Below, piece by piece: positions 23,558 through 58,362 of a DNA stretch of 64,000 nucleotides. Under the pieces are notes generated by a model. That model was given only the letters and a program-made list of their open reading frames with translations. It had not been told where the DNA came from and made no database searches. Position 1 is the stretch's first letter. Each line of letters starts with the position of its first letter. The DNA lies in the NCBI RefSeq assembly GCF_000355675.1, contig NC_020888.1, positions 1,754,883 to 1,818,882 of the forward strand, written 5' to 3'. The DNA is from Thalassolituus oleivorans MIL-1 (lineage in GTDB: Bacteria; Pseudomonadota; Gammaproteobacteria; Pseudomonadales; Oceanobacteraceae). Both the position numbers and the translations under genes were made by a program.

Positions 23558-24588
23558 TTACACCAGCAGCCACGCATAACGCGATTAATGGCGCGGTTTT
23601 GCCTTGGCAACAGTCGGTTTGGGCTGATCTCATTAAGCGTCATCGTCATAGCGGTTTACCTCATGCACTTATGCTTACTGGGCCAAAAGGCATCGGTAAG
23701 CACGATTTAGCTTTGCATATCGCGCGCTGGCTGTTGTGTCAAAACCCTAGTGATGATGCGTGTGGGCACTGTCATAGCTGTCAGCTTTGGGCCGCCGGTA
23801 GTCATCCTGATTTTCAGATCGGTCAGCCAGAAGAGGGCAGTCGACAAATTCGTATTGATACGGTGCGCCATATCAATGATTTTATTTCGCAGACACCGCA
23901 AATTAGTCGCTGCCAAGTGGTTATTATCCGCCCTGTTGAAGTAATGAATACCAACGCTGCGAACGCTTTACTTAAAACCTTGGAAGAACCGCCGGGTGAG
24001 AGCTTTCTGTTGCTAGAAACTGAGCGTTTTGGTTCTGTATTGCCGACTATTCGTAGTCGCTGTCAGCGTTTATCGTTAGCAGCTCCGAAGGCAGAACTGG
24101 CGTTGCAGTGGCTAACAGCTACTGGTGTACAAACAGCAATCGCCGAGCATGCTTTACGCATGAATAACAACGCGCCGTTAGCGGCTCGTGATTGGCTTTC
24201 CGGAGCTGCAGGCGATACACAGCAGCGTTGGCTTGAGTTATTACTGCAATGGTCCAAAGGTTCTGCACCACTGCAAACGGTTGCTGACGGCTGGAGTAAG
24301 TTTGAACTGGGCGATATTATCACTTGGTTTTACGGCTTAACCTGTGATTGCATGAAGGCCATGATGCAAGTGCCACATGAACATTTACTCTATGCCAATG
24401 CCGTCACAGAACTGTCGAGTTACGCTATGACCGACAAAATAAAGCTGATAACCTTGCAAGACAAATTACGGCTAACTAACGGGCAATTACTGTCTGGTGC
24501 TAGTCATCATAATAAGATGTTGTTGGTCGAATCTTTATTGCTCGACTGGCAAGCGTTACTCATTCAAAGGTCTGGGAGTTCGGCATGA
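23548..24588 (+). CDS. holB: DNA polymerase III delta' subunit
   Basis: A clamp-loader subunit of the AAA+ fold. A P-loop-like GPKGIGKHDLAL follows the N-terminal ALMLTG. The zinc module is ACGHCHSCQLW with an earlier Cys (LLCQNPS). NALLKTLEEPPGESFLLLETE and the SRC motif (TIRSRCQRL) that supplies an arginine finger are present. 346 residues. The stop overlaps the pilZ start by four bases. Confidence 0.94.
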   Translation: MGVITPAATHNAINGAVLPWQQSVWADLIKRHRHSGLPHALMLTGPKGIGKHDLALHIARWLLCQNPSDDACGHCHSCQLWAAGSHPDFQIGQPEEGSRQIRIDTVRHINDFISQTPQISRCQVVIIRPVEVMNTNAANALLKTLEEPPGESFLLLETERFGSVLPTIRSRCQRLSLAAPKAELALQWLTATGVQTAIAEHALRMNNNAPLAARDWLSGAAGDTQQRWLELLLQWSKGSAPLQTVADGWSKFELGDIITWFYGLTCDCMKAMMQVPHEHLLYANAVTELSSYAMTDKIKLITLQDKLRLTNGQLLSGASHHNKMLLVESLLLDWQALLIQRSGSSA

Positions 24589-24929
24589 GTTTAGGTGGCC
24601 GCAGCGGTATTTTATCTCTGACTATTAAAGATAAGGCAGTGTTATACGCAGCCTATATGCCGTTTATTCGTGATGGCGGGTTATTTATTCCTACCAGCAA
24701 ACAGTATCAACTTGGCGACGAGGTATTTATGTTGTTGAAGTTGATGGAAGAGCCGGAAAAAATCCCAGTTGCAGGTAGGGTTGTTTGGGTGACACCAAAG
24801 GGCGCTCAGGGCAATAAAGTTGCAGGTATCGGCGTGCAGTTTACGGGTGATGATGAAATTGCTCGCGGCAAAATAGAAACTTATTTAGCGGGTGCCGTTA
24901 AATCTGATCGAATGACCCATACGATGTGA
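24585..24929 (+). CDS. pilZ: PilZ-domain protein, type IV pilus PilZ type
   Basis: A 114-residue protein consisting of one PilZ-like domain. It resembles Pseudomonas PilZ, which is needed for type IV pilus assembly through PilB/FimX and lacks the RxxxR c-di-GMP motif. Here too I see no RxxxR, only FIRDGGLFIPTSKQYQLGDEVFMLLKL and the closing VAGIGVQFTGDD. The position after holB is the same as in Pseudomonas aeruginosa. Confidence 0.88.
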   Translation: MSLGGRSGILSLTIKDKAVLYAAYMPFIRDGGLFIPTSKQYQLGDEVFMLLKLMEEPEKIPVAGRVVWVTPKGAQGNKVAGIGVQFTGDDEIARGKIETYLAGAVKSDRMTHTM

Positions 24930-24958
24930 TAATAGCCAAGGGTTACTTGGCTATTATC
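24928..24958. terminator. Stem-loop between convergent pilZ and cytochrome b561 genes
   Basis: A perfect 13-bp inverted repeat (24928-24940 with 24946-24958) around a five-base loop that holds part of the cytochrome b561 stop codon. There is no T tract on either side, so it may act as a weak bidirectional terminator or as a 3'-end stabiliser. Confidence 0.55.
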
Positions 24959-25617
24959 CAGACAATTAGCGCAGCGACCGCTGAGCCGATCAATACTCGC
25001 AACCACGGCGTTGCCTTAATCGCTTCTGATTGACTAATGTTGGCTTTGCCATGAATCATGGCTGGCACTAGGTTTTGTTTGCGCACTAGCTTGTAATAGG
25101 CAATTGCAGCAATGTGCACAACGATGAGTGTCATCAAGATGCTAAAGCTTATTTCATGAATTTCAGCGCAAAGCCTACCCGTGTCATATGACACAAAGTC
25201 GCTTAATGGCCCACCGTCAAAACCATCGACGTCGACAGCAAATAACCCCAAACCAATTTGCAAAAGGATAAAACCTAGTAAGGCGATAACGCTCCATGCG
25301 CCTAATGGATTATGTCCGGCTTTATTCGGGCGATTCTCATCATAGTTCGATTTAAAAATATGATTACGCGCATAAGTTAATGCGGCTTTCGGAGAACTAA
25401 CAAAATTTGAGAATCGTGCAGTACGTGTACCAACGACTCCCCAATATAGTCGAAATAACACTAAACCGAACAACCCATATCCAGCGTAGCGATGCCAGGT
25501 CATCTCGTGATTTTCACCGCTCCACCAACAGACAGCAAATAACAGAACCATTAGCCAGTGTCCAAGGCGCACTGGAATATCCCAAACAGGTTGTAATGAC
25601 GTGTTGTTTTGACTCAT
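24943..25617 (-). CDS. Cytochrome b561-family membrane protein
   Basis: About 224 residues with four hydrophobic spans and well-placed histidines for two b hemes: RLGHWLMV in helix 1, MTWHRYAGYG at helix 2, and LCAEIHEISFSILMTLIVVHIAAIAYY in the last pair. It belongs to the b561 / Ni-Fe-hydrogenase-type cytochrome b group, which carries electrons between the quinone pool and periplasmic cytochromes. ATG 25617 is used (TTGGA about eleven bases upstream); the frame is open to 25641. It is last in a five-gene minus-strand operon, directly after a cytochrome c' gene, a pairing seen in many proteobacteria. Confidence 0.85.
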   Translation of the reverse strand: MSQNNTSLQPVWDIPVRLGHWLMVLLFAVCWWSGENHEMTWHRYAGYGLFGLVLFRLYWGVVGTRTARFSNFVSSPKAALTYARNHIFKSNYDENRPNKAGHNPLGAWSVIALLGFILLQIGLGLFAVDVDGFDGGPLSDFVSYDTGRLCAEIHEISFSILMTLIVVHIAAIAYYKLVRKQNLVPAMIHGKANISQSEAIKATPWLRVLIGSAVAALIVWIIAK

Positions 25618-25647
25618 AGATTTATTTTTCCAAGCGGCCAAGCAATA

Positions 25648-26127
25648 TTAGTCAGCGCGGAAGCTAGAGTGACAGTCGGAACAGCTATCTTTGACGGCGA
25701 CAACTGCCGCTTTAATGGATCCTTTGTCGTTGCTTGCTACTGCTTCGACCAACTGTTGAGATGTCCTTACTAGGTCCTGGCTGTATCGATCAAATTTGGT
25801 TGGATTTTTCCAGATGTAATCGAGCGCATCTGTGTCTAAACCTGAATCAGCACCACTGCCTTCAGGGAACCAAGTAGAAACATCTTTAGCATATAGCGCT
25901 ATCGTATCGGCAGCAGCACTCATGGCGTTTGCATCAGGAGTATCTTCACGAAGCTGGGTGCGGAAAACCTTCATGGCGCCCCCCATTTTTTTAAATCCGT
26001 GTTGGCGAGTATCAATAACGTCTGCTGCCGAAGAGACATCTGCTGCAAATGAGGTTATGGCGCTGCACGACAATGTAAGAGCAAGACCGGCAATGGCTGT
26101 GTGACGCAATAAATACGAATTCTTCAT
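25648..26127 (-). CDS. Cytochrome c' (class II cytochrome c)
   Basis: A 159-residue secreted four-helix protein. The signal peptide ends near TSFAADV (about residue 29) and the single heme site SCSDCHSSFR lies close to the C-terminus, the mark of class II cytochromes c. The axial position and spacing fit cytochrome c' or cytochrome c-556. Class II proteins bind NO or act as periplasmic electron carriers. It overlaps the ankyrin gene by four bases upstream and is followed by cytochrome b561. Confidence 0.9.
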   Translation of the reverse strand: MKNSYLLRHTAIAGLALTLSCSAITSFAADVSSAADVIDTRQHGFKKMGGAMKVFRTQLREDTPDANAMSAAADTIALYAKDVSTWFPEGSGADSGLDTDALDYIWKNPTKFDRYSQDLVRTSQQLVEAVASNDKGSIKAAVVAVKDSCSDCHSSFRAD

Positions 26128-27458
26128 AAAGCTTCCTCTAGAGAGTGTTGAAATACGGCCGCAAATGTAGCTTTGCCTTTGTACTCCTTGGCTGTGGCTA
26201 TATCCATTGCACTAACACCTTTACTATTACGGATGTCGGCATTGGCCCCATACTGCGCAAGTAAGGTTAGCATCTGCTGCAGATCATCGCCGGAACTTGT
26301 TTCAAGTACAATGTGCAGCGGGGTTTGGCCATACTTATTGCTGATATTGGCATTGGGTGATAGTGCAAGGGCTGTTGCCAAAGCTTGAGGGCTATTACTG
26401 CCTGCGGCGGCCAGAGTGATGTTGTTACCGTGTTCCGAAGTAACGTTTATATCAACGCCAGCGCTGGCTAATATCTTCATTATTTCGCCGTGGCCATGCT
26501 GTGCAGCGAGAAGAATCGCTGGGGTAAATGGTGGTTCGTAGGGCGCGGTTTTGAAATTGCTTTCATAGCGCCATTTAACTAGAGACTCTCCTGTTGGAGT
26601 ATTCAAATCCGCGCCTTTATTTATCAATAGCTGAACCAGTGCAGGTTGATTGGCCAACACCGCGGCATGTAATAGTTGCTGCCCATTGCGATCGAATGCC
26701 GTTAGATCAGCACCTCGTTTGATTAACTCTTGAGCAATAAGATAATTGCTTTGGTACATAGCTAATTGCACTAATGTGGTATTTTCTGGGCCAATATGAC
26801 TGGCGTCGGCGTTATTAGTTAACAGTGTTAAAGCTGCTTCTGGTTTACCACTCTTAACGGCGAAGAATAAAGCGGTAAATCCTGCATTAGTAACCTGATC
26901 AATATGAGCGTCGTGCTTAATTAATAACTTTACTGTGTCCATTTTATTGTAGGCGGCCGCTCTCATTAGTGGCGTCTGGCCTTTTTTATCGCTCAAGTGG
27001 ATGTCTGCTTTCATTTTTAACATGCGTTTTATGATTTTGCTCGAAGCGGTGCCAGCACAAAGAGAAAATGGCGAAATGCCTTCACTGTCAATGGCGTTGA
27101 TATTTGCTTTCGCTTTGAGTAGTAATTCAATTATTTCATTGTGACCATACTGGCAAGCCAAACTCAATGGCGTGAAGGTCGTTGCAGGATTTTGTAGATT
27201 AGGTTTCGCACCATGTTTTAACAGAATTTTCACACTGCTTAGGTTTTGACTTTCCACAGCCCAAGCTAATGGCGTTGAACCATCAGCTAGTAACTGATTC
27301 GGGTTGCTACCATTATCCAGAATATACTCGACCTTATTGGCGTCTCCTAGGCGGATCGCATCAAGTAGTTTCTCGCTATCATTTTTGTTAGCGGCCAAAG
27401 CGGCTGAACTTGCGACATAAAAAACTGAAAAAATAATTATATTTAACATAGAGGTCAT
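26124..27458 (-). CDS. Secreted ankyrin-repeat protein
   Basis: 444 residues: a signal peptide (to about residue 22, SSAALAAN), then about a dozen ankyrin repeats covering nearly the whole chain (for example GSTPLAWAVESQNLSSVKILLKHGA, written here only in part: GSTPLAWAVES and KGQTPLMRAAAYNKMDTVKLL). Ankyrin repeats are protein-binding scaffolds with no catalytic role of their own. In the periplasm the likely partners are the neighbouring DUF1552 and DUF1592 proteins. The genes are contiguous: 11 bases after DUF1552 and a four-base overlap with cytochrome c'. Confidence 0.85.
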   Translation of the reverse strand: MTSMLNIIIFSVFYVASSAALAANKNDSEKLLDAIRLGDANKVEYILDNGSNPNQLLADGSTPLAWAVESQNLSSVKILLKHGAKPNLQNPATTFTPLSLACQYGHNEIIELLLKAKANINAIDSEGISPFSLCAGTASSKIIKRMLKMKADIHLSDKKGQTPLMRAAAYNKMDTVKLLIKHDAHIDQVTNAGFTALFFAVKSGKPEAALTLLTNNADASHIGPENTTLVQLAMYQSNYLIAQELIKRGADLTAFDRNGQQLLHAAVLANQPALVQLLINKGADLNTPTGESLVKWRYESNFKTAPYEPPFTPAILLAAQHGHGEIMKILASAGVDINVTSEHGNNITLAAAGSNSPQALATALALSPNANISNKYGQTPLHIVLETSSGDDLQQMLTLLAQYGANADIRNSKGVSAMDIATAKEYKGKATFAAVFQHSLEEAL

Positions 27459-27469
27459 GGCATTAAATC

Positions 27470-28804
27470 CTAGGCTGACAGCTCATGTAAAAGGCCTGTG
27501 CTATCTCCAAACGACTCAGCTGGCACGCCCAGCTTATTGATCATCGACAGCATTAAATTACACATCGGCGTATTTTTTTCGACGGCAATGTGTCGGTTAC
27601 CTTGTAGGCCTCCGCCTGCAATAATCGCGGGTAGGTTCATGTTGTCGTGCGCATTAGGTTCTCCTAAGCTCGCTCCTGCCATTAATAAAGTGCTGTCGAG
27701 CAAACTTGATTCTCCATCTTTGGTTGAACTCATGCGCTCGAGGCAGTAGGCAAACTGTTCCATATGGTGGCGATTTATTTTAACGAGTTTGGCAATCTTC
27801 TCTGGGTTGCCGCCGTGGTGGCTGAGGCTGTGATGTGAGTCGGGTACGCCTATGTCGGGATAAGTGCGATTACTTAATTCGCGTCCTAGCATAAAAGTAC
27901 AAACACGCGTCATGTCCGTTTGCAATGCTAAAACTTGCAGATCAATCATTATCTTTACGTGGTCTTCGAACGAGTTTGGAATGCCTGTTGGCATTATTAA
28001 GTCGCCAGCATTTGTGTCTATTTTTTGCGAGCTGGCTTTCTGGATACGACGTTCAACGTCGCGAATAGAGGCTAAATATTCATCCATTTTGCGCCGATCA
28101 TTCATCCCCATTTTTTTAGTTAATCGCGCGGCATCGTCGCGTACAAAATCGAGAATGCTTGATTTGCGTTTGAATTGAGCTTGCCTGCTTTCTTCGTCTA
28201 GCGACATGCCATCGCCAAATAATCGTTCAAAGACATCACGCGGATTTACGGTTACGGGAAGCGCGACGGTAGGGCTACGCCATGACAATGTGTTGGTGTA
28301 AGTGCAGCTGTAACCGATATCGCAGCTGCCGAGCAAGCTAGATGGCTCAATACCAAGCTCAAGTGACGCTAACTGTGTTTCGGTGGCAAAATGATTGGCT
28401 ACGACCTGATCCATGGAAATACCACATTGCAAATCTGAACCTTCAGTCCGTTTAGGGTGTGCTCCAGTGAGATAAGCACCGCAGCTGCGACCATGACTGC
28501 CCGGGCCATCACCGAGTGCACTAGCGTTGTAATGAGCTAAACCGGAAATGACAGAAAATTGATTCCGATAGGCTGCTAACGGCTCCAATATGGGTGTCAT
28601 AGCGTAATTCATCCCAGTAGTTAATGGCGTAAAGCTATCCATGCTCATACCATTTGGCGTATAAAAAACACTCAGGCGTTTGGGTTTATTCTCAAGGGTG
28701 TTTGCGTATGCTGCGGGTGCAATCGACTCTAATAGTGGCAAAGCGATACTCGCACCAAGCCCGCGAAGAAGTGAACGACGGCTGATTGATAAGGTGTCTT
28801 TCAT
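27470..28804 (-). CDS. DUF1552 protein with Tat signal
   Basis: A 444-residue protein starting MKDTLSISRRSLLRGLGAS, a twin-arginine signal, with cleavage expected after PAAYA. The rest matches the DUF1552 family by its FYTPNGMSMDSFTP opening, DHVKIMIDLQVLALQTDMTRV, and SHHGGNPEKIAKLVKINRHH blocks. In this family the gene is found next to a DUF1587/1592/1588/1585 multidomain protein, as here (four-base overlap). The function is unknown. Tat export implies folding, perhaps with a cofactor, in the cytoplasm. DUF1552 is related to the sulfatase-like DUF1501 proteins common in Planctomycetes. Confidence 0.85.
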   Translation of the reverse strand: MKDTLSISRRSLLRGLGASIALPLLESIAPAAYANTLENKPKRLSVFYTPNGMSMDSFTPLTTGMNYAMTPILEPLAAYRNQFSVISGLAHYNASALGDGPGSHGRSCGAYLTGAHPKRTEGSDLQCGISMDQVVANHFATETQLASLELGIEPSSLLGSCDIGYSCTYTNTLSWRSPTVALPVTVNPRDVFERLFGDGMSLDEESRQAQFKRKSSILDFVRDDAARLTKKMGMNDRRKMDEYLASIRDVERRIQKASSQKIDTNAGDLIMPTGIPNSFEDHVKIMIDLQVLALQTDMTRVCTFMLGRELSNRTYPDIGVPDSHHSLSHHGGNPEKIAKLVKINRHHMEQFAYCLERMSSTKDGESSLLDSTLLMAGASLGEPNAHDNMNLPAIIAGGGLQGNRHIAVEKNTPMCNLMLSMINKLGVPAESFGDSTGLLHELSA

Positions 28805-31236
28805 GCGTCAGGTGTCCTGCGTAGATTAAATGGTTCGCTATTCACAATGGCTAAAATCAGAGTGTGAATGCGATAATTGTCATCAGCGACTGCTTTAGCA
28901 ATGGCTCTAACCTTAGGTTGGTCGTAAGGCTCTAATCCGCGACCTAGGGCGTAGGTCAGTAGTCGCTGGGTAAATGCTTGAGTAAATTGGTCTTTTTGCT
29001 GCAATAAAATATCTTGCAGTCCGCTTAGCGCTTCGAACTGCGTGCCGTCAGGCATAACTGCCGATGAATCAATTATTCGGCCCGTATCGTATTGACGATA
29101 TGCACCAACAGCGTCGAAATTTTCTAGAGAAAGCCCTAGAGGATCCATTTTTGAATGACACCCAGCGCAAGCAGGGTCTTCCCTATGTAATGCCATTTGT
29201 TCACGGGCATTTAATTCTTTCCCGCCTTGTTTCGCCACTAAAGCAGGAATGTTTGGCGGAGGAGGTGGCGGCGAGGCAGCGAGTAAATTATCGAGAATCC
29301 ATTTTCCGCGTTTAACTGCCGAGGTGTGATTGCCGTATGAAGTAACCGTTAAAATGCTACCTTGGCCGAGTAAGCCGCCGCGACCATCAGAAGGTGACAG
29401 CTCTACTTTGCGCATCGCGGGGCCGCTGACATTTTCAATATTATAATGCCGTGCTAGCCGTTCATTAATAAACGTGTAATCACTGCGAATAAAATTAAGC
29501 AAGCTGGCATTGTTGCGCACAATATCGGCAAAGAACCATTCACTTTCGTCCAGCATGGCTTGACGTAGTGGCACATCAAATTCTGGAAATTCGAAAACGT
29601 CCGGACGTTGATATTCTAGATTTCGTAAATAAAGCCACTGGCCGGCGAAGTTTTCGGTTAATGCAATAGCTCGGTTATCATTCAGCATGCGATTAACTTG
29701 TTGCTTTAAAATCTTTGGCTGGCGCAGTACGCCTTTATTCGCAGCTGCTAGCAGTTCGTCGTCGGGTAGGCTACTCCATAAAAACAAGGCCAAGCGCGAA
29801 GCGAATTCAATATCGCTAATAGGGTGTACTGTTCCTGGCTTGCTATTTTCTGGATCTTGTTCAAACAAAAACAGAAAACTCGGTGATACCAGTAGAGCTT
29901 GAATTGCAGTCGCAATACCATGGTTGAAATCGGCGTCGTTTTTAACCTCTTTATATATAGCGTAGAGTGGTTGTGTATCGCTTTTATTAACAGGTCGGCG
30001 GTAAGCTTGCTGCATTAAGTTTGCGATTATTTCTTCTGCGCATTCATCTTCTGTTGAGGCAGCTTCGGGAAGGCAAGAGAATATTTTATCGCGGCTTGGT
30101 GTTTTACCAGGACCTGAGGCATTGAACGGCCCATCGATATTCATTTCTAACACATCGCGTAAGAAATTAACTTGAGCAAACCGAGGCGTCATATAATAAG
30201 ACGGCACATCGACACTGCCGACGCGAGCACCATCGACGACAAAGTCTAGCGTCATGCTTGTCGGAGGAAGTGTCGGTAATACAACGATGTCAGTTGTGTT
30301 GTGAAGCGTTTGCACTGTTTCATCCAAGGCAAGCCGCTTACGAAATGTCATGCCAATGTGGTGCGGACCTGCGTTCAATGGCACTTCTATACTGACGTAA
30401 TTTTCTAGTAAGCGATCCACCTCATTATTGGTATTTGCGTTTAAATATCCTCCAATTTTATAAGTGCCGTCATGCGGAGCGTAATACGAAAATTCGCCAC
30501 CGCCACGTGAATTTAGCGGAAGGTGGTCGCCCATGCGATGGTTATAGGATGGAATGCCTTGGTTCATAATTGAACCATCTTTGGGCAATGTATATATCGT
30601 CGAAAATGGTTCGTTAGGCCCCAGTCCAACTGCAAGTTTGCTGATCTTGCCTGCAACGCGAATGTAGCGCTCCACTAAAGTGGGTGAAACAGTCAATACA
30701 TCGGCAATATTGTCGAAGCCATAGCCTGAGTCATCAGCCGGTAATTCATCTTTAATGTCGACATCTAGTGCTAGCAAATCCCTTACGGCATTACTGTATT
30801 CAGCACGATTCAGGCGGCGAATGGTTGAGCGGCCTGGGTTAGGATTTTCAATGCTGTAATTATCGAGTGATGTCTGAAGCCATGAACTGAATTCTTTATG
30901 TTCAGATGCGCTGGGTTGTGGTTTGTTTACGGGCGGCATTTCTCCGCGTGTAATCATACTCAGAATTTTTTCCCACGAGCCAAGGTCATGCCCCTTAGCT
31001 ACGCTCTCGGCTTGCACCATAGATAAAGACCAATTGCCTGACATACGCTCGTCGTTATGGCAGCGCGAACAATAGGTATCTAAAAACTCGTCGGCTTCTA
31101 GTGCTTGATTTGCCGCGTGCGCGGTAAGTGATCCGCAGAAAATAGAAGCTACTGCGATGTAAGAGATACGCATACAAGTGCGAAAACTACTTATTCGGTC
31201 GTAGCCAAACCGACGGGGGCCAAGTATTACCTTCAT
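28801..31236 (-). CDS. Secreted two-heme DUF1587/DUF1592/DUF1588/DUF1585 protein (planctomycete-type cytochrome)
   Basis: About 811 residues. An N-terminal cytochrome-like segment has CSRCH (TYCSRCHNDERMSG). Then come the DUF1587 block RRLNRAEYSNAVRDLL, a carbohydrate-binding-like stretch, DUF1595/1592 (QQAYRRPV, FASRLALFLWSSLPDDELL), DUF1588 with a second heme motif CAGCHSKMDPLGLSLENFD, and DUF1585 (FTQAFTQRLLTYALGRGLE) at the end. The family is unresolved but is proposed to be periplasmic oxidoreductase. The start is uncertain: ATG 31236 has GAGG five bases upstream. A start at 31173 would begin exactly at a classical signal peptide (MRISYIAVASIFCGSLTAHA), and a frame start at 31332 is unlikely. 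First gene of the operon. Confidence 0.85.
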   Translation of the reverse strand: MKVILGPRRFGYDRISSFRTCMRISYIAVASIFCGSLTAHAANQALEADEFLDTYCSRCHNDERMSGNWSLSMVQAESVAKGHDLGSWEKILSMITRGEMPPVNKPQPSASEHKEFSSWLQTSLDNYSIENPNPGRSTIRRLNRAEYSNAVRDLLALDVDIKDELPADDSGYGFDNIADVLTVSPTLVERYIRVAGKISKLAVGLGPNEPFSTIYTLPKDGSIMNQGIPSYNHRMGDHLPLNSRGGGEFSYYAPHDGTYKIGGYLNANTNNEVDRLLENYVSIEVPLNAGPHHIGMTFRKRLALDETVQTLHNTTDIVVLPTLPPTSMTLDFVVDGARVGSVDVPSYYMTPRFAQVNFLRDVLEMNIDGPFNASGPGKTPSRDKIFSCLPEAASTEDECAEEIIANLMQQAYRRPVNKSDTQPLYAIYKEVKNDADFNHGIATAIQALLVSPSFLFLFEQDPENSKPGTVHPISDIEFASRLALFLWSSLPDDELLAAANKGVLRQPKILKQQVNRMLNDNRAIALTENFAGQWLYLRNLEYQRPDVFEFPEFDVPLRQAMLDESEWFFADIVRNNASLLNFIRSDYTFINERLARHYNIENVSGPAMRKVELSPSDGRGGLLGQGSILTVTSYGNHTSAVKRGKWILDNLLAASPPPPPPNIPALVAKQGGKELNAREQMALHREDPACAGCHSKMDPLGLSLENFDAVGAYRQYDTGRIIDSSAVMPDGTQFEALSGLQDILLQQKDQFTQAFTQRLLTYALGRGLEPYDQPKVRAIAKAVADDNYRIHTLILAIVNSEPFNLRRTPDA

Positions 31237-31617
31237 TCTTGCCTCTAAAATAAGCGCAGTTTGGCAGCATCCTTGGCCAGTAGCAGAAAGGGCGATATTG
31301 CCCAGTCGCCAATATTGCATCTTCAATGCCAAAACTTGACTTATTGGTCAGATAAATTGACGGACATATTTAAAGGCTAATAAAATCAATAGGTTGTTGG
31401 GGTTTTATTAATACTCTTGAGTGGGCTAGGCAGGTAATTAAACGACTTAAACGATGGCTTTTGGTGCGATGAATGGATGGCTGCACCAATACGAACCTCA
31501 AACAAACGGACCAATTAGGCCTGTGACACCTCATGACATTTGTTATCGACTTCCGCCGAAATTCACACCCGAGTGAATCACTTCGTGCAATGAAGCACGG
31601 CCAATACAGAGGATGTT
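31237..31617. other. Divergent intergenic region of DUF1592 and DUF2167 genes
   Basis: Holds the divergent promoters. TTGACG (31357-31362) and TAAAAT (31381-31386) with an 18-base spacer are a good plus-strand sigma-70 match. The remaining 230 bases up to the DUF2167 gene are A+T-rich and hold no gene I can support. Confidence 0.4.
31357..31386 (+). promoter_or_regulatory. Sigma-70 promoter candidate for the DUF2167 gene
   Basis: -35 TTGACG and -10 TAAAAT, spacer 18. It would give a leader of about 225 bases to the ATG at 31618. Confidence 0.4.
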
Positions 31618-32556
31618 ATGAAGTCGAATCTATTAAAAGCGTTTTTATTTAGCGCAGCATGTCTGCTTTCCAATGGCGTACTAAGTGAGGATGCCGTTGA
31701 AAATACTTACACCGAGTCAGCGTTCATCTTACCTGAGTTGACAGGCGACGAATCGGAAGGCTATCGCCAACAAATCGAATTTTTAAGTTCTTTAACTTTA
31801 TATACTGGCAAGATTGAATTAGGTGCTGGTTTAGCCACGCTTGAAGTGCCGGAGAATTACTATTATTTAAACCCAGAAGACAGCAAGCGAGTGCTTGAAG
31901 ATGCTTGGGGTAATCCTCCTGGTGAACTGGGTTTAGGTATGTTATTCCCAGCACAATACACTCCGATTGATAATGCGGCTTGGGGTGTTGAATTGGCGTA
32001 CTCTGAAGAGGGTTTTGTATCTGATGAAGATGCCGGCGAAATTGATTATCAAGAACTACTGGAAGGTCTTCAGGCAGATACGCGCAAAGAGTCAAAATAT
32101 CGCGTTGAGCAAGGTTACGACACGCTGGAACTCGTTGGTTGGGCTGAAGCTCCATATTACGACGCTATTACGCATAAGTTGTATTGGGCAAAAGAAATAC
32201 GCTTTGGCGATATGGACGTAAATACCTTGAATTACAACGTTCGTATTCTTGGACGCAAAGGGTATTTATTGATGAACTTTATTGCCAATATTGATCAGCT
32301 ACAAGAAATCAATATGGCGCGCGATGAAGTTCTTGGTATGGCAAATTTCAACGACGGCAATTTGTATAGTCAATTCGATCCGGATATCGACACGGTCGCA
32401 GCATACGGTATTGGTGGTTTAATTGCCGGTAAAGTATTGGCTAAAACCGGCATGATAGCGATGGCATTGTTGGCGCTGAAAAAGTTCTGGTTCGTCTTGT
32501 TTCTGCCATTACTTTGGTTGAAAAAGCGTTTGTTTGGCAGTAAAAGCGCAAGTTAA
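31618..32556 (+). CDS. DUF2167 family membrane protein
   Basis: 312 residues. Signal peptide at residues 1-23. The exported domain shows the DUF2167 pattern (GKIELGAGLATLEVPENYYYLNP; LEDAWGNPP; GMLFP; GWGVELAY-like WGVELAYSEEGFVSDEDA; YRVLGRKGYLLMN-like VRILGRKGYLLMN). A C-terminal pair of hydrophobic segments (about 265-303) ends in a basic tail (KKRLFGSKSAS). The family is widespread and uncharacterised. AGGATGTT lies directly at the start. It stands alone, followed by a stem-loop and a convergent aminotransferase gene. Confidence 0.8.
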   Translation: MKSNLLKAFLFSAACLLSNGVLSEDAVENTYTESAFILPELTGDESEGYRQQIEFLSSLTLYTGKIELGAGLATLEVPENYYYLNPEDSKRVLEDAWGNPPGELGLGMLFPAQYTPIDNAAWGVELAYSEEGFVSDEDAGEIDYQELLEGLQADTRKESKYRVEQGYDTLELVGWAEAPYYDAITHKLYWAKEIRFGDMDVNTLNYNVRILGRKGYLLMNFIANIDQLQEINMARDEVLGMANFNDGNLYSQFDPDIDTVAAYGIGGLIAGKVLAKTGMIAMALLALKKFWFVLFLPLLWLKKRLFGSKSAS

Positions 32557-32580
32557 TAATAACGTGTTAATTTAGTCCGG

Positions 32581-32606
32581 TTGTCGCAATTACCGCTTTG
32601 CGACAA
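32581..32606. terminator. Stem-loop between convergent genes
   Basis: TTGTCGCAA and TTGCGACAA (32581-32589 with 32598-32606) form a 9-bp stem with an eight-base loop. There is no T tract, so the terminator role is tentative. Confidence 0.4.
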
Positions 32607-32620
32607 TCGACTTAAATGAC

Positions 32621-33787
32621 TTAACTGCGATTTGTTAATCTCGCCACAGCATCCAGTGCATCATCCAATACGTCTGCTGTGGTGTGGAAGTGCGGAGCAA
32701 AACGTATACCGCCGCCGCGACTTGCGCACACAACACCAATCCCCATCAATTGCCGATAAAGTTTTTCGCTGTCGATATTTGAAAAGCGAAAGGTAATAAT
32801 CCCTGATCGGCCTTCGGCATGAGCTGGCGTTAAGATATCCGCGCCAATGTCTTCTAAGCCGCTGCGCAGATAAGCGATATTGCTAGCGATTTTTTCTTGA
32901 ATAACATCTAAGCCAACTTCTAACAATAAGTCGGTGCTTGCAGCAAACGCAAACGCGGCGAGCATATTTGGGCTGCCACATTCAAAGCGACGCGCCGTTG
33001 TTGCTGGTTGCCAATCTTTGCGGCTGTAGTCTCCTAAGTGTTCGACCATATGCCAGCCAAATTCACTTAACGCTAATTGCTCCATAACGTCAGGGCGCAC
33101 ATAAAAGAAGCCTAAGCCTTCAGGACCAAGCAACCATTTGTGACCGTCAGCCATGGCAAAGTCAGCATGAGTATCCGTAACTGAGAATGGACCTGTGCCC
33201 ACCGCTTGAATTGCATCGACGCAAAACAGTACGCCGTGCGCGCGACACGCTTCGCCAATACGCCTTAAATCCATCGCAATGCCAGTGCCGTATTGCACTG
33301 CGCTGATAGATACTAAGCGTGGAGATTGCTGTATTGCGGCTATCAGCTCTGCTTCAGGGGTGTCGCCATCAACACTGACGGTCTTAACGGTAACTCCCTT
33401 ATTGCTGAGCGATTCCCAAACGATACGATTTGAGGGGAATTCTTGATCGCTAATCACTACGACATCGCCAGACTTCCAATTCAACCCGTACGCAACGAAA
33501 GAAAGTGCTTCTGAGGTGTTTTTGACCAACGCGATACTGTCGACAGGGGCATCAATTAATAATCCAAGATTTTCACGAAGACGGTTTTCCGTAGGAATCC
33601 ATTCGGGGTAATGGCTAGCGCCAAGCCCTGCATTTTCGTTAGCAAACTCAATAACGGCTTTACGTGATCGGTCTGGCCAAGGTGCAACAGCCGCATGATT
33701 TAGGTACATACATTCTTGATTGACTGGGAATTCTTCGTTCCACCAATCAGTCTCGCGGTGGCTAACCTTCCTTGAATCGCGCGTCAT
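32621..33787 (-). CDS. Class-V aminotransferase-fold PLP enzyme (cysteine-desulfurase-like)
   Basis: 388 residues of the SufS/NifS-like fold. It has LNHAAVAPWPDRSRKA at the N-terminus, VKNTSEALSFVAYGL (PLP phosphate site), the aspartate of VDAIQAVG (Asp191) and the Schiff-base lysine of MADGHKWLLGPEGLGF (Lys217). True SufS proteins carry a catalytic Cys in a C-terminal loop. The corresponding C-terminal segment here reads MGIGVVCASRGGGIRFAPHF, where a Cys precedes ASRGG, but its role is not assured. It could be a desulfurase, a selenocysteine lyase or an isopenicillin-epimerase-like enzyme. It stands alone, with no suf genes nearby. Confidence 0.75.
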   Translation of the reverse strand: MTRDSRKVSHRETDWWNEEFPVNQECMYLNHAAVAPWPDRSRKAVIEFANENAGLGASHYPEWIPTENRLRENLGLLIDAPVDSIALVKNTSEALSFVAYGLNWKSGDVVVISDQEFPSNRIVWESLSNKGVTVKTVSVDGDTPEAELIAAIQQSPRLVSISAVQYGTGIAMDLRRIGEACRAHGVLFCVDAIQAVGTGPFSVTDTHADFAMADGHKWLLGPEGLGFFYVRPDVMEQLALSEFGWHMVEHLGDYSRKDWQPATTARRFECGSPNMLAAFAFAASTDLLLEVGLDVIQEKIASNIAYLRSGLEDIGADILTPAHAEGRSGIITFRFSNIDSEKLYRQLMGIGVVCASRGGGIRFAPHFHTTADVLDDALDAVARLTNRS

Positions 33788-51473: not shown

Positions 51474-52715
51474 TTAAAGCTCTGGCTTAATCTTCTTATG
51501 ACGTGCGCTGGCATGACGTTCGCGCATTTCCGTATCAATATAACGATCTGTCGTTGCCATGCTGGCGTGCCCAGCGTCCTCGCGGACATGCTCTTTGGGT
51601 CTGAATTTCACATCCTCAGAAATTCCGGTGTGACGCAGCCAGTGGACGGTCGCAACGCGTAGCTCTCGTGCCTCTTCTTCTAGGCCATCGGATTTCATTC
51701 TATCTAACGCACGATCGAAGCAGGCTTGTACCATGTAGCGAATTTGACGAGTGCTGGTCACTGGGCCGCGTCCACGTAATTTAGCCACAAGCGGCGTTTG
51801 CTCGCCGACATAGGGGAGAGGTGGAAGCCCAAGATGGGTGCGGTAGCGTCTCAGCGTTTTTAGCATGTCGTCGGATACTGTTACCATGCGTGCTTTGTTG
51901 CCTTTACCAACAACTCGCAGCCACCAATTGCCATCCTGATCTTTTTGGAAGTCACCCATTACCGGAGCGGAGCGTTCATCGGCAACTAATTCCGATATTC
52001 GTAAATACATCCCGAACAAACAGTTCATAACAAATAAGGTGCGCTCGTGCTCGGCAGGGTGTTCCTTAGCTAATTGCTCGGTGGTTTCTAAAATAAAGTC
52101 CCATTGCATGTTCGATAAGCGGCGCACAGGTTCTTGATAAGCGTGGCGTTGCAAGAATTTACTTTTTTGGCGAATTAAGGCGACGGGATTAACTTTTAAA
52201 TAATCTTCTTGCAGCAAAAAATTAAAGTAAGTCGACAGTACGGCGAATACAGATTGCAGTGATTTCTGCGAAAGTGCGGTTGATGACATGCGTCCTATCT
52301 TGTCGGCCTTACTCACGAAAGGCCGCCATATAGTGCTGGCCTTGCGCTCGCCTTCAGGGCCAGTGAAGCGAGCCGCTTGTCGGTCGCCCGTCCATGCCTT
52401 CGGTGGATCTTGGCAGAAGTGAATATAGGCTTCTATATCTTGGCGACCTAGATCTGTCAGTGTGACTTTTTGAATTAGCCAGCACCATTGCAATAAACGT
52501 TCGATTTCACGGCGATAGCTATTAAAGGTTGCGCCGCTGCCGTTATACGCCGTTAAAAAGGTTAGGGAGTGGATAAGATCATCAAAAGCCCCAGGAAGCT
52601 TTTCAAGCTCAGGAATTCGCTTCATTGTTTTTCGCGCGTAAGCGAGAGGGCTGCCTATATATTCAAGTTGATCGATAACCGGCTGTGGTGCTGTGGAGTT
52701 TGGTGCTTTAGACAT
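51474..52715 (-). CDS. Tyrosine-type site-specific recombinase / integrase
   Basis: 413 residues with a core-binding domain and a C-terminal catalytic domain that keeps the full active site: Arg239 (MYLRISELV), Lys271 (VGKGNKARM), His358 and Arg361 (HWLRHTG), His383 (DAGHASMATT) and Tyr392 (TDRYID). It is the long phage-integrase-like type that often occurs alone on proteobacterial chromosomes. The neighbouring metal-resistance genes suggest a mobile context, but no att sites or excisionase could be identified. Confidence 0.9.
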   Translation of the reverse strand: MSKAPNSTAPQPVIDQLEYIGSPLAYARKTMKRIPELEKLPGAFDDLIHSLTFLTAYNGSGATFNSYRREIERLLQWCWLIQKVTLTDLGRQDIEAYIHFCQDPPKAWTGDRQAARFTGPEGERKASTIWRPFVSKADKIGRMSSTALSQKSLQSVFAVLSTYFNFLLQEDYLKVNPVALIRQKSKFLQRHAYQEPVRRLSNMQWDFILETTEQLAKEHPAEHERTLFVMNCLFGMYLRISELVADERSAPVMGDFQKDQDGNWWLRVVGKGNKARMVTVSDDMLKTLRRYRTHLGLPPLPYVGEQTPLVAKLRGRGPVTSTRQIRYMVQACFDRALDRMKSDGLEEEARELRVATVHWLRHTGISEDVKFRPKEHVREDAGHASMATTDRYIDTEMRERHASARHKKIKPEL

Positions 52716-54406: not shown

Positions 54407-55179
54407 AACATGCAGATACGGATCTAAGTAAAACCGATATTAACGAAAGCGAAGTTGAAGTGATCGGCGCCATCGTATTTGGTTCCGATCAAGGTTTAGT
54501 CGGACAATTTAATGAAGACATCGCTCAGTTTGCTGTTAAATCGCTCGGCAAATTGCCGGGAAAACCAACTATTTGGGCTGTAGGCGAACGAGTTCAAACA
54601 CGGCTAGCGGATGCACATTCAAAGCTGGGTGCAGCCTATAATTTGCCGACCAGCGTCATCGGAATAGCGCCTTTAATTGGCCATCTTGTCGCGCAAATTC
54701 AACAGGCGACCGAACGCCAAGAAAATAATCAAAAGGGCAGTAATAGTCCTTATAACACGTCATATGGCATCTATGTTTTTCACAATCGCCCAACATCAGG
54801 CGCACTTTATGAGCCGACGCTGCAGCGATTATTACCACTTGATCAGCAATGGCTACAAAGCCTAGCGGAGATCGAATGGCCAAATAGTCATCGGCCAGAG
54901 ATACTTTGCCCCATTGGCAAAGCCGAGCGTCAGGTGAATATTCGAACCAGAAGGGCTCTTATTCGGGAGTATTTGTTTATTTCGATATTTCGTGCCTGTG
55001 CCGAATCACTCGCCAGTGAAAACGCCAGTCGCTTAGCGGCCATGCAACGGGCAGAAAAGAATATCGACGACCTGCAAGAAAAGCTGGGGCGCGAATTTAA
55101 TAGGCTGCGCCAAAGCGCGATAGATGAAGAGTTGTTTGATGTCGTGGCGGGCTATGAGTTGTTATCGCAGCAGCACTAA
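54403..55179 (+). pseudogene. atpG: 5'-truncated gamma subunit gene of an N-type F1F0 ATPase
   Basis: The sequence from VIGAIVFGSDQGLVGQFNE to the end (RALIREYLFISIFRACAESL, ASENASRLAAMQRAEKNIDD) matches the gamma subunit of the alternative N-ATPase (LPLDQQWLQSLAEIEWP is also typical). The first 80 or so residues, which form the coiled-coil shaft that rotates in the ATPase, are missing, and no other ATPase gene lies beside it. A GTG at 54460 could start a 239-residue protein, but the frame continues upstream without a natural beginning. It is best read as a leftover of a lost operon. The end is normal, and a perfect hairpin covers the stop codon. Confidence 0.8.
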
Positions 55180-55227: not shown

Positions 55228-58200
55228 TCAGTCCGCAGCGCTATGATCGTCCTTATTTTTTGCGGCTCGCCACGTCAGTCGATAAAGACCGGGCAACACC
55301 AATAACGTCAACAATGTCGACGATATAATGCCGCCGATCACGACCGTCGCCAGTGGCATTTGAACTTCGGCCCCCGTGCTAGTGTTGAGTGCCATCGGCA
55401 AAAAGCCTAATGCAGCCACTAAAGCGACCATTAATATCGGCCGTAAGCGCATCATAGCGCCATCGATAATCGCCTGTTCAATGGCTTCGCCGCGATTCAG
55501 CACATCGCGGAATGCCGAGACCATCATGACTCCTGTCAGCACCGAAACCCCGCACAAGGTAATAAAGCCTACGCCAGCCGTGATAGATAGGGGGATATCG
55601 CGCAGCCATAAGGCGATCACACCACCGGTCAATGCCAGAGGCACACCACTAAAAACTAAGGCAGCATCTTTCGCCGAGCCAAAGGTCATCATCAGCAACG
55701 CAAAAATCATCACCAAAGTTACTGGCACTAAAAGGCTTAACCGTTGCGAGGCTGATTGCAGCTGCTCAAAGGTGCCGCCGTATTCCAACCAATAGCCCGG
55801 TGGTAGTTTTACGTTTTGCGCCATTTTGTCTTGAACTTCGGCGACAAACCCACCTAAGTCGCGATCGCGAACGTTAGCGCTGACCACCAGTCGGCGTTTA
55901 CCGTTCTCGCGCGAGATTTGATTAGGGCCGGGGGCTAAGGTGAGGCTAGCCACTTCTTGCAACGGCACATAACCACCATTGGGCAGTGGAATCGGTAAGC
56001 GCTCTAATGCGCTTAAGTCGCTTCTTACATGCTCGGCCAATCGCACCACGATAGAGAAGCGTTGATCACCCTCAAAGATAAGCCCAGCTTCTTCACCGCC
56101 AGTGGCGGCAGCAACGACATCTTGTACATCGGCCACATTTAAACCATAGCGATACAAGGCAGAACGATCAGCTTCAATCGACAGGATCGGCAAGCCGGAT
56201 ACTTGCTCTACCTTTACGCCCTCTGCACCCTCAATACCGTTCAGTAAGGCGGCGATTTCACCCCCCGATTTAAGCAATTGCTGCAAATCATCGCCAAAGA
56301 TTTTAATCCCCAAATCAGAGCGCACGCCCGAGATCAACTCATTAAAGCGCAGCTGAATCGGTTGGCTGATTTCATAAGCATTTCCCGGCAGTAATGAGAG
56401 CTTGGCGCTGATTTCATCCAATAGCTGCGCTTTGGTTTTGTCGGGATTCGGCCATTCACTGTGATCTTTGAGCATCACGTAGCCGTCGGAAATATTAGGT
56501 CCCATCGGATCGCTGGCGACCTCGGCCGTTCCTACCCGAGAAAAGTAGGTTTTCACTTCTGGTATTTCCAGCACTGCTTTTTCCAATTGAAATTGCATAT
56601 CCAGCGATTGGGTCAGGCTAGTGCCGGGAATGCGTAACGCTTGAATGGCAATATCTCCCTCATCTAAGTTCGGAATAAACTCAGTCCCCATGCGTGTTGC
56701 CATAACACTAACCAACACCACAAAGACGAGCGCCGCCGCTAACACCAGTAGGCGAAACTTGAGCACCCAGGCTAAGACTGGGGCATACAACCGCTTAGAA
56801 TTGCGCACAATCAGGTTGTCTTTTTCTTCAATGTGGCCGCTCAGGCACAGCGCTACGGCGGCGGGTACAAAGGTCAGCGATAAGACTAGAGCGGATAGCA
56901 GGGCCATAATCACGGCCATAGCCATTGGCGTGAACATTTTTCCCTCCACGCCGGTCAGTGCCAAGATAGGTAGATTCACCAAAATAACCACCAACACACT
57001 GATCAAACTCGGGGTGAATACTTCGCGCGTGGCGCTAAACACGGTTTGAAAACGTTCCTCCAGTGCTAAGGTGCGGCCCAGTTGGTGTTGTCGTGCCGCC
57101 AGTCGTGCTATGCAGTTCTCAACGATAATCACCGCGCCATCAACAATTAAGCCGAAGTCGAGTGCGCCTAAACTCATTAAATTGGCACTGACCTTGGTTT
57201 GCACCATGCCGGTCATTAGCATCAACATGGACAGTGGAATCACCATAGCCGTCAGCAAGGCGGCGCGAACATTGCCCAGCATAACCAAAAGTACTACCAC
57301 CACCAGTAACGCACCTTCGGCCAGATTGGCTTGCACCGTAGCGATCGTTTTATCAACCAATACGGTACGGTTGTATACCGGCTCGGCAATAACACCTTGT
57401 GGCAGTGTTTTATTTATTTCCACCAGCTTAGCGGACACCGCTTGCGATACCGTTCGGCTATTGCCTCCCAGCAGCATCACGGCGGTACCTAATACGGTTT
57501 CTTCGCCGTCGAGTGTTGCTGCCCCAGTACGCAGTTCTTTACCGAAACCAACGTCGGCCACATCAGCAACGGTAATCGGTACGCCAGCGCGGCGCGCAAC
57601 GACAATTTTCTCGATAGCTGGAATGTCTGCCACTTGTCCGGGAGCCCGAATCAAATACTGCTCGCCGTTTTTCTCAATATAGCCCGCACCGACATTGGCA
57701 TTATTGTTCTGCAGCGCTGCGACGATATCGTCAAAGCTGAGGTGATAGGCCAGCAGTTTGGCGGGGGCAGGAGTAATGTGGAACTGCTTTTCAAAACCGC
57801 CGATGGTGTTCACTTCGGTCACGCCAGGCACTAAACGCAATTGCGGACGAATCACCCAATCCTGCAAGGTGCGTAAGGCCGTCGCGTCAAACGGCTCTCC
57901 GTTATCTTGTAAAGCACCCGGTTGCGCATGAACGGCATAATGGAAAATCTCCCCCAGCCCTGTGGCCACCGGGCCCATCACAGGTTCAATGCCAACCGGC
58001 ATTTCACTCTTCGCGCGTTGCAGCCGCTCGTTGATCAGGTTGCGAGCAAAATAAATGTCCGTACCTTTGTCAAACACAACCGTCACTTGAGATAAGGCGT
58101 AGCGCGACAGCGAGCGAGTACTCTCGACATACGGCAAGCCGGTAATCGCCAGCTCGACCAAGTAAGTCACGCGCTGCTCGACCTCTAACGGTGAATAGCC

Positions 58201-58362
58201 CGGCGCCTCGGTATTAATTTGCACTTGAACATTGGTGATGTCCGGCACGGCATCGATAGGGAGGTGCTGATAATTCCAGACACCTAATGCGGCAACGGCC
58301 GTTACTAAAAAGATCACTAGCCAGCGGCGGGCGATAGAAAATTGAATCAGTTTATCGATCAT
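55228..58362 (-). CDS. CzcA-type heavy-metal RND efflux pump
   Basis: 1044 residues, twelve transmembrane helices with two large periplasmic loops. The helix 4 signature DFGLIVDGAVIIVEN matches the Czc (Zn/Co/Cd) type. The Cu/Ag pumps carry a different helix-4 motif, so divalent cations are the likely substrates. The N-terminus MIDKLIQFSIARRWLVIFLV is typical. It is the inner-membrane part of a tripartite exporter, and its adaptor gene lies 53 bases upstream in the operon. No outer-membrane channel gene is visible. Confidence 0.9.
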   Translation of the reverse strand: MIDKLIQFSIARRWLVIFLVTAVAALGVWNYQHLPIDAVPDITNVQVQINTEAPGYSPLEVEQRVTYLVELAITGLPYVESTRSLSRYALSQVTVVFDKGTDIYFARNLINERLQRAKSEMPVGIEPVMGPVATGLGEIFHYAVHAQPGALQDNGEPFDATALRTLQDWVIRPQLRLVPGVTEVNTIGGFEKQFHITPAPAKLLAYHLSFDDIVAALQNNNANVGAGYIEKNGEQYLIRAPGQVADIPAIEKIVVARRAGVPITVADVADVGFGKELRTGAATLDGEETVLGTAVMLLGGNSRTVSQAVSAKLVEINKTLPQGVIAEPVYNRTVLVDKTIATVQANLAEGALLVVVVLLVMLGNVRAALLTAMVIPLSMLMLMTGMVQTKVSANLMSLGALDFGLIVDGAVIIVENCIARLAARQHQLGRTLALEERFQTVFSATREVFTPSLISVLVVILVNLPILALTGVEGKMFTPMAMAVIMALLSALVLSLTFVPAAVALCLSGHIEEKDNLIVRNSKRLYAPVLAWVLKFRLLVLAAALVFVVLVSVMATRMGTEFIPNLDEGDIAIQALRIPGTSLTQSLDMQFQLEKAVLEIPEVKTYFSRVGTAEVASDPMGPNISDGYVMLKDHSEWPNPDKTKAQLLDEISAKLSLLPGNAYEISQPIQLRFNELISGVRSDLGIKIFGDDLQQLLKSGGEIAALLNGIEGAEGVKVEQVSGLPILSIEADRSALYRYGLNVADVQDVVAAATGGEEAGLIFEGDQRFSIVVRLAEHVRSDLSALERLPIPLPNGGYVPLQEVASLTLAPGPNQISRENGKRRLVVSANVRDRDLGGFVAEVQDKMAQNVKLPPGYWLEYGGTFEQLQSASQRLSLLVPVTLVMIFALLMMTFGSAKDAALVFSGVPLALTGGVIALWLRDIPLSITAGVGFITLCGVSVLTGVMMVSAFRDVLNRGEAIEQAIIDGAMMRLRPILMVALVAALGFLPMALNTSTGAEVQMPLATVVIGGIISSTLLTLLVLPGLYRLTWRAAKNKDDHSAAD

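Follow-up and report, generated by a model that had tools for sequence, protein, structure and literature searches.

The 64,000-nucleotide stretch of the Thalassolituus oleivorans MIL-1 genome analysed here, called the window, spans positions 1,754,883 to 1,818,882 of contig NC_020888.1 (G000:C1:1754883-1818882 in our genome set). It holds five adjoining genes that encode a DUF1592-type cytochrome, a DUF1552 protein, an ankyrin-repeat protein, a cytochrome c' and a b561-type cytochrome b. We hold with moderate confidence that these genes are a horizontally moved operon wiring a periplasmic DUF1592/DUF1552 redox enzyme pair to the quinone pool of the membrane. The main evidence that the two cytochromes serve the DUF pair is that their linkage to it repeats in different arrangements, both in Gammaproteobacteria and on plasmids of sphingomonads. 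The five genes are as follows:

28801..31236, minus strand: DUF1592-type two-haem c cytochrome (PSD3-PSD5-PSD4-PSCyt3-PSD2), exported; from Pfam and the CxxCH alignment
27470..28804, minus strand: DUF1552 / HXXSHH protein, exported by twin-arginine translocation (Tat), with a predicted alkaline-phosphatase/sulfatase-like fold; from Pfam, alignment and Foldseek
26124..27458, minus strand: exported ankyrin-repeat protein, short type without a C-terminal CxxC tail; from Pfam
25648..26127, minus strand: cytochrome c' (class II cytochrome c), with CSDCH near the C-terminus; from Pfam and PDB matches
24943..25617, minus strand: cytochrome b561-type membrane cytochrome b, whose open reading frame (ORF) opens with TTG at 25641; from Pfam

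A check of the ORFs gives the order b561, cytochrome c', ankyrin, DUF1552 and DUF1592 along the minus strand. With DUF1592 starting at ATG 31236 and b561 at ATG 25617, the intergenic gaps are -4, +11, -4 and +30; a later start of DUF1592, at ATG 31173, is also possible. An original prediction, made from the bare sequence, had described five genes on one strand with short gaps or overlaps, and all five ORFs are found in their places. Its protein names hold as well, since Pfam gives the same five: PF01292 for b561 (95 bits), PF01322 for cytochrome c' (102 bits), Ank_2 for the ankyrin protein (173 bits), PF07586 for DUF1552 (363 bits, against a cut-off of 30 bits) and, in the large protein, PSD3/PSD5/PSD4/PSCyt3/PSD2, which correspond to DUF1587/1595/1592/1588/1585. 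The spacing of the genes suggests that they would be read as a single transcript. Neither promoter-like sites (10 vs 17.5) nor terminator-like sites (9 vs 9.8) are commoner than in shuffled sequence. The b561 stop codon lies within a perfect 13-bp inverted repeat (5-base loop; window 24928-24958), which reaches into the end of the converging PilZ gene and is not followed by a T run.

Conservation of the gene set

A scan of GTDB genome contigs gave at least 465 confirmed relatives, and the best 80 loci were kept for neighbourhood counts. The window's cytochrome c' is matched in 4 of these 80 and its b561 in 3, all within the four loci nearest the window. All five genes stand in the same order in Thalassolituus sp. 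UBA674, of the same genus (genome G007, locus L019), and in Cellvibrionaceae AOL6 (L020). A Hydrocarboniphaga sp. (L017) has four genes in order with b561 divergent upstream, and four of the genes are present in a further gammaproteobacterium (L018), which makes five genomes with the set, the window's included. Cytochrome c' is present in the window and in L017-L020, and the ankyrin protein is 43-48% identical to its partners in these four loci. The co-occurrence of the five genes is more than chance, since three further genomes have all five. One conserved set, with the cytochromes belonging with the DUF pair, is what the original prediction proposed, and it is borne out in four other genomes, complete in three of them if the divergent b561 is counted. 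A lack of such conservation had been named as grounds for giving the proposal up; the set is conserved, and a four-gene version without the ankyrin gene is also seen in all 12 matching Sphingobium plasmids. The description of the DUF proteins as typical of Planctomycetes proves too narrow, the closest kin found being Gammaproteobacteria and a Novosphingobium plasmid.

PF07586 occurs as one copy in the T. oleivorans genome and, with that genome included each time, in 4 of 55 relatives (3 of them scoring above the cut-off), in 6 of the 369 class genomes and in 8 of the 398 phylum genomes. Six of the seven other phylum genomes were read, the weak match G791 being left out; cytochrome c' is found in G496, ankyrin in G700 and neither in four.

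The set consists of two joined modules. The first is a triad of DUF1592, DUF1552 and ankyrin: DUF1592 lies directly before DUF1552 in 72 of the 80 best loci, and an ankyrin gene follows DUF1552 on the same strand in 50 (48 of them with the pair detected, four of these 48 being L017-L020) and stands divergent upstream in 3. The triad recurs in Acidobacteriota, Gemmatimonadota and Woeseia. The joint conservation in the original prediction stands, but the set is better described as two joined modules, the triad alone being widespread (48 of the 80 best loci). In Verrucomicrobia, PSCyt3 genes usually adjoin a family of unknown genes, which the passage does not name (PMC5615132).

Several further features are seen among relatives of the triad. 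Long ankyrin partners (L051, L057, L070 and others, from Acidobacteriota, Gemmatimonadota and Woeseia) carry a conserved C-terminal tail of the N-N-H-x-C-x-x-C type, found by pattern in 38 of 48 complete ankyrin ORFs and missing from the window's short type. Creatininase-family genes adjoin triads (L072:13373-14500, L056, L058, L067, L082 and others) and form one cluster of 16 ORFs from 14 loci, with L012 and L055 being the same place; the one member scanned matches PF02633, and the member in L077 has an apparent signal peptide by eye. In other Gammaproteobacteria (L195, L196, L197 and L198), ORFs of 1590-2371 codons with DUF1592 matches and two to four CxxCH motifs adjoin a DUF1552-type gene. 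L047, a contig that bears the title Klebsiella pneumoniae, has a DUF1552 placed on a long branch together with an Acidobacteriota protein; the title of this metagenome-assembled genome is probably wrong.

Joining of the cytochromes and probable horizontal movement

The second module, the c'-b561 pair, can be found apart from the DUF genes. The window's b561 is matched at 1e-20 in 144 of 398 phylum genomes, and a c' match lies within 1.5 kb in 20 of the 29 best b561 loci outside the window. No DUF1552 or DUF1592 match lies within 1.5 kb in any of these 29 loci, one of which (L160) has an ankyrin match, and ten c'-bearing loci widened to 13 kb show no DUF pair. Three relatives in the genus (G001, G004 and G008) have the c'-b561 pair and lack PF07586. 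The idea of a b561 subfamily dedicated to the DUF pair was set aside, as the nearest b561 genes from other genera, at seven loci and 44-50% identical, adjoin c' with no DUF pair.

The same joining is seen in sphingomonads. The order DUF1592-DUF1552-c'-b561 is found in 12 of 12 matching Sphingobium plasmids, where the DUF proteins are very divergent (DUF1552 only ~25% identical). Pfam was run on one of these plasmids; nine records annotate the DUF genes only as hypothetical, and these genes were recognised by tblastn, which also found the unannotated c' gene of TomTYG65. The twelve plasmids are near kin and are counted as one event. Ten of them have a second DUF1552 place, which in the one examined (L142) is without either cytochrome. 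Novosphingobium RL4 has the DUF pair between the two cytochrome genes, with c' ~2.2 kb upstream and b561 0.8 kb downstream. In G496, c' comes after the DUF pair, and a b561-c' pair is present at another place in the genome. When loci with c' near the DUF pair are labelled on the DUF1552 tree (70 rows), the label takes 3 changes, against 8.6 for shuffled labels. Two separate recruitments of cytochromes by the DUF pair are likely. A 418-residue protein without a Pfam match precedes DUF1592 in the Sphingobium version (L144:6096-7352).

Residue changes were also considered as markers of the cytochrome link. The DUF1592 proteins of the five-gene clade carry H633, a position that is R in 56 of 56 other rows, and the DUF1552 proteins of the clade are without D103 (present in 54 of 59 others) and H388 (57 of 59 others). 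The closest outgroups of the clade, G700 and a plasmid of Novosphingobium KACC 22771 (DUF1552 60% and 56% identical), show neither c' nor b561, yet they too carry H633 and are without D103. H633 and the loss of D103 thus mark a wider clade and not the cytochrome link, and their use as markers was rejected.

The flanks of the operon can be compared with the same site in relatives. The genes that bound this site, and a further gene within it, are:

24585..24929, plus strand: PilZ gene, the left edge of the empty site in relatives; from Pfam and the relatives' loci
31618..32556, plus strand: DUF2167 gene, divergent, inside the same inserted stretch; relatives were searched for it
32621..33787, minus strand: class V aminotransferase, which bounds the empty site on the right in four relatives and is absent there in G006; from Pfam and the relatives' loci

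The site is without the operon in 5 of 5 testable relatives. In G007, G003, G004 and G002, the class V aminotransferase and PreP come after PilZ (other ORFs stand there in G003 and G002), and in G006 PilZ adjoins PreP. In G001 and G008, holB and PreP lie on different contigs, and G005 has no PreP match. The operon of G007 sits elsewhere, between an ArsP-type permease and rapA. In a DUF1552 tree with outgroups, the G007 protein groups with that of AOL6 (99/89; 92/84 in an earlier tree) and not as sister to the window protein. Given this placement and the different sites, the set would have moved as a unit between genera or have been gained more than once. The low G+C of the operon (45.9%, vs 48.7% in the rest of the window) is a weak sign of transfer. 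Terminal repeats of an insertion were sought and dismissed, the search giving only short, chance-like repeats. Searches of 8 other genomes of the genus and of 17 related loci gave no match for the DUF2167 gene, which is probably not part of the system. The whole stretch from PilZ to the aminotransferase (window 24930-32600) is variable in the genus, with different extra ORFs in G002 and G003 and a weak beta-barrel match in G003.

Protein features and the direction of electron flow

The large protein has the full DUF1592-type make-up, with PSD3, PSD5, PSD4, PSCyt3 and PSD2 and a C-terminal CxxCH. Both of its CxxCH motifs are invariant in 61 full-length aligned rows, which were chosen for coverage. 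The Sphingobium-type protein is without the N-terminal haem motif, so the second haem is the shared one. In the window's protein, a central strand-rich stretch (~207-371) contains two insertions that are wholly or almost wholly missing from the 56 rows outside the five-gene clade. Its structure model, with a predicted local distance difference test (pLDDT) score of 84.8, matched nothing in the PDB at E <= 0.001; weak similarities to carbohydrate-binding modules (CBMs) were not used in judging the fold. Sequence searches for solved relatives of DUF1592 and DUF1552 found none convincing.

DUF1552 carries the H-x-x-S-H-H motif of its family as H325, S328, H329 and H330, in keeping with its 363-bit match. 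Both arginines of its twin-arginine signal are invariant in 64 of 64 aligned rows, as are H325, H329, H386, D132 and T113, and the three histidines are kept in the Sphingobium-type branch (5 rows). The best Foldseek match of its model (pLDDT 83.7) is a sulfatase (E 1.6e-5, template modelling (TM) score ~0.4). There are 56 matches with E <= 0.001, with TM scores of only ~0.4, and the 50 listed titles are sulfatases, sulfamidase, phosphonate hydrolases, LtaS/LtaP, YejM or phosphatases. Residue 103, at the helix start after the second strand, is what we take to be the nucleophile position, on the general topology of the superfamily. It is S, S, S, S, A, G and G in the seven clade members and D in 54 of 64 rows, and at this presumed position the conserved nucleophile of an active alkaline phosphatase superfamily hydrolase is missing. 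Because the presumed site is not conserved, DUF1552 is more readily seen as a protein with a metal site than as a classical hydrolase, a reading that depends on the assumed topology.

The cytochrome c' assignment agrees with its Pfam score, its CSDCH motif and its best PDB matches, which are solved cytochromes c'. A Phe stands in 5 of 5 sequences at a position aligned with Leu of 1a7v and Phe of 1cpq, presumably on the distal side of the haem, and would be consistent with an open haem site.

In the proposed scheme, b561 would exchange electrons with quinol/quinone and cytochrome c' would ferry them across the periplasm. DUF1592, with its two haems c, may pass electrons to or from a DUF1552 metal site of conserved histidines. 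The ankyrin protein might hold or stabilise the DUF pair; its role as a scaffold is a guess. Flow could be outward, from quinol through b561 and cytochrome c' to DUF1592, and drive a reductive or oxygen-activating reaction. We consider this direction somewhat likelier than the inward flow of the original prediction, because of the precedent of SHP, the reduction of lytic polysaccharide monooxygenases (LPMOs) by a domain of Cbp2D and the potentials involved. Cytochrome c' potentials lie at or above that of ubiquinone, and reduction of ubiquinone is roughly uphill. Elsewhere, the T. oleivorans genome has a DUF1924-DHC-b561 set with a second b561 gene, in which we take DUF1924 to be SHP. The "substrate to membrane" direction first proposed is not shown; for SHP operons, the kind of set to which this one would belong, the published model points outward: from quinol to a cytochrome b, a dihaem cytochrome c and SHP (PMC2909971). 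The SHP operon likewise joins a membrane cytochrome b and periplasmic cytochromes c in one set (PMC2909971), but the five-gene set has no DUF1924 or DHC, its partners being DUF1592, DUF1552 and ankyrin. Cbp2D of Cellvibrio japonicus, a proposed LPMO electron donor, is also a DUF1587-bearing c-type cytochrome in a gammaproteobacterium, and its X183 cytochrome domain can reduce LPMOs (PMC8981238). It has CBM and quinone-binding YceI-like domains (PMC8981238), whereas the window's DUF1592 protein has neither by Pfam.

Several observations weigh against this scheme. In L018, no b561 match was found within 10 kb either side. A c' match is missing from 76 of the 80 best loci, many of which are short, and because most DUF1552 loci show no c' or b561 nearby, the cytochrome wiring is an optional addition to the DUF pair. 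Both G700 and Novosphingobium KACC 22771 have the triad with no c' or b561 beside it, the G700 contig ending ~3 kb past ankyrin. The three label changes on the DUF1552 tree could be a single gain with two losses. Beyond a planctomycete stress study that lists a DUF1552 gene, no redox or expression data on these proteins were found. In Pseudohongiella-type loci (L021, L022 and L027), a GMC oxidoreductase stands three genes past the DUF pair (Pfam on the L021 member), which fits substrate oxidation and inward flow.

An inward chain, in which the DUF pair oxidises a substrate while c' and b561 feed the quinone pool, is possible and is kept as a tentative alternative. Besides the GMC oxidoreductase, it can draw on steroid-type catabolic surroundings in Sphingobium and on PF01292 itself, which also covers hydrogenase cytochrome b subunits working inward; the window's b561 reaches only 34 bits with TIGR02125 (cut-off 121.5). 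However, electrons could reach cytochrome oxidase by a c-type route without any b561, and the c' potentials, the outward SHP precedent and the lack of an HsaA-type match in the window's genome also weigh against an inward chain.

The surroundings in Sphingobium were read in four records with 9-kb flanks. Past the module on S. herbicidovorans pMSHV lie genes whose best named matches are HsaC (269 bits, cut-off 450) and HsaA (398 bits, cut-off 450). On pTomTYG65a, pTomTYG46a and pTomTYG74a, the best match of a nearby acyl-CoA dehydrogenase is IpdE2 (197, 200 and 197 bits; cut-off 450), and the gene beside it best matches pimeloyl-CoA dehydrogenase. All these matches near the Sphingobium module are below curated cut-offs; HsaA, HsaC and IpdE2 are steroid enzymes. 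An HsaA-type gene has no match in the T. oleivorans genome; of the five set-bearing genomes, Hydrocarboniphaga alone gives a strong match (360 bits, cut-off 450). Steroid catabolism was therefore rejected as a general role, with no HsaA-type match in 4 of these 5 genomes and with 7 of 14 control genomes matching at a loose threshold. Because of this result, the steroid lead holds for sphingomonads, perhaps also for Hydrocarboniphaga, and no further, and a hydrophobic polycyclic substrate is a lead in Sphingobium and not in the window's genome. Among tomato-root isolates, all tomatine degraders carry steroid-catabolising genes (PMC10653915); the words cytochrome and DUF are absent from the main text of that paper.

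The outward scheme can be extended to a broader proposal, which we think rather doubtful: DUF1592 and DUF1552 together would be a periplasmic haem/metal oxygenase or reductase of a new class, supplied with electrons from quinol via b561 and c'. Its quinone link would have been recruited independently in Gammaproteobacteria and sphingomonads, and its substrates, at least in sphingomonads, would be hydrophobic polycyclic compounds.

The two modules could also be separate neighbours joined by transfer, the triad as an enzyme and the c'-b561 pair acting on nitric oxide or general periplasmic redox stress. This fits the existence of the triad alone and of c' beside b561 in loci with no DUF match, both counted above, but the linkage outlasts rearrangement, with b561 divergent in L017, and appears again in sphingomonads with a DUF1552 only ~25% identical, which makes separate functions unlikely. 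Least probable is a phosphatase- or sulfatase-like hydrolase in DUF1552, with DUF1592 only sensing or binding and the redox parts regulating: Foldseek sets the DUF1552 model among sulfatases and LtaS, but there is no conserved nucleophile at the presumed position 103 (by the assumed topology), and DUF1592 directly precedes DUF1552 in 72 of the 80 best loci.

Relation to known systems and other genes of the window

The PSCyt3/PSD haem-protein families are known but functionally dark (PMC5615132, PMC2754498). Planctomycete-specific cytochrome systems, described with PSCyt3/PSD in Verrucomicrobia (PMC5615132), have the same domain families in their haem protein. The present set differs from them in its short ankyrin protein, c' and b561, in the single DUF1552 copy of the T. 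oleivorans genome, in its occurrence in Gammaproteobacteria and in clade-specific changes at otherwise near-invariant sites. Proteobacterial c'-b561 pairs have the same two proteins close together (20 of the 29 best b561 loci), but those 29 loci, read 1.5 kb either side, and the ten widened ones show no match to DUF1592 or DUF1552. In the open-licence literature, searched mostly by title and abstract, no description was found of the ankyrin partner or of the c'-b561 link. The kind of haem protein is known; the version linked to ankyrin and c'-b561 appears to be new.

The five-gene set offers a concrete route to the function of widespread, unexplained DUF proteins. This single-copy and apparently quinone-linked version occurs in a genus with named marine species, and its Sphingobium parallel is carried by plasmids of isolated strains, which makes deletion and redox experiments practical. 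The repeated joining to c'-b561 shows which partners can be tested.

Other genes of the window include a Tn3-type transposase and a weak phage-integrase-like ORF (59269-62256 and 51474-52715), as well as an AcrB-type pump (55228-58362) and an ATP-synthase (PF00231) gene (54460-55179).

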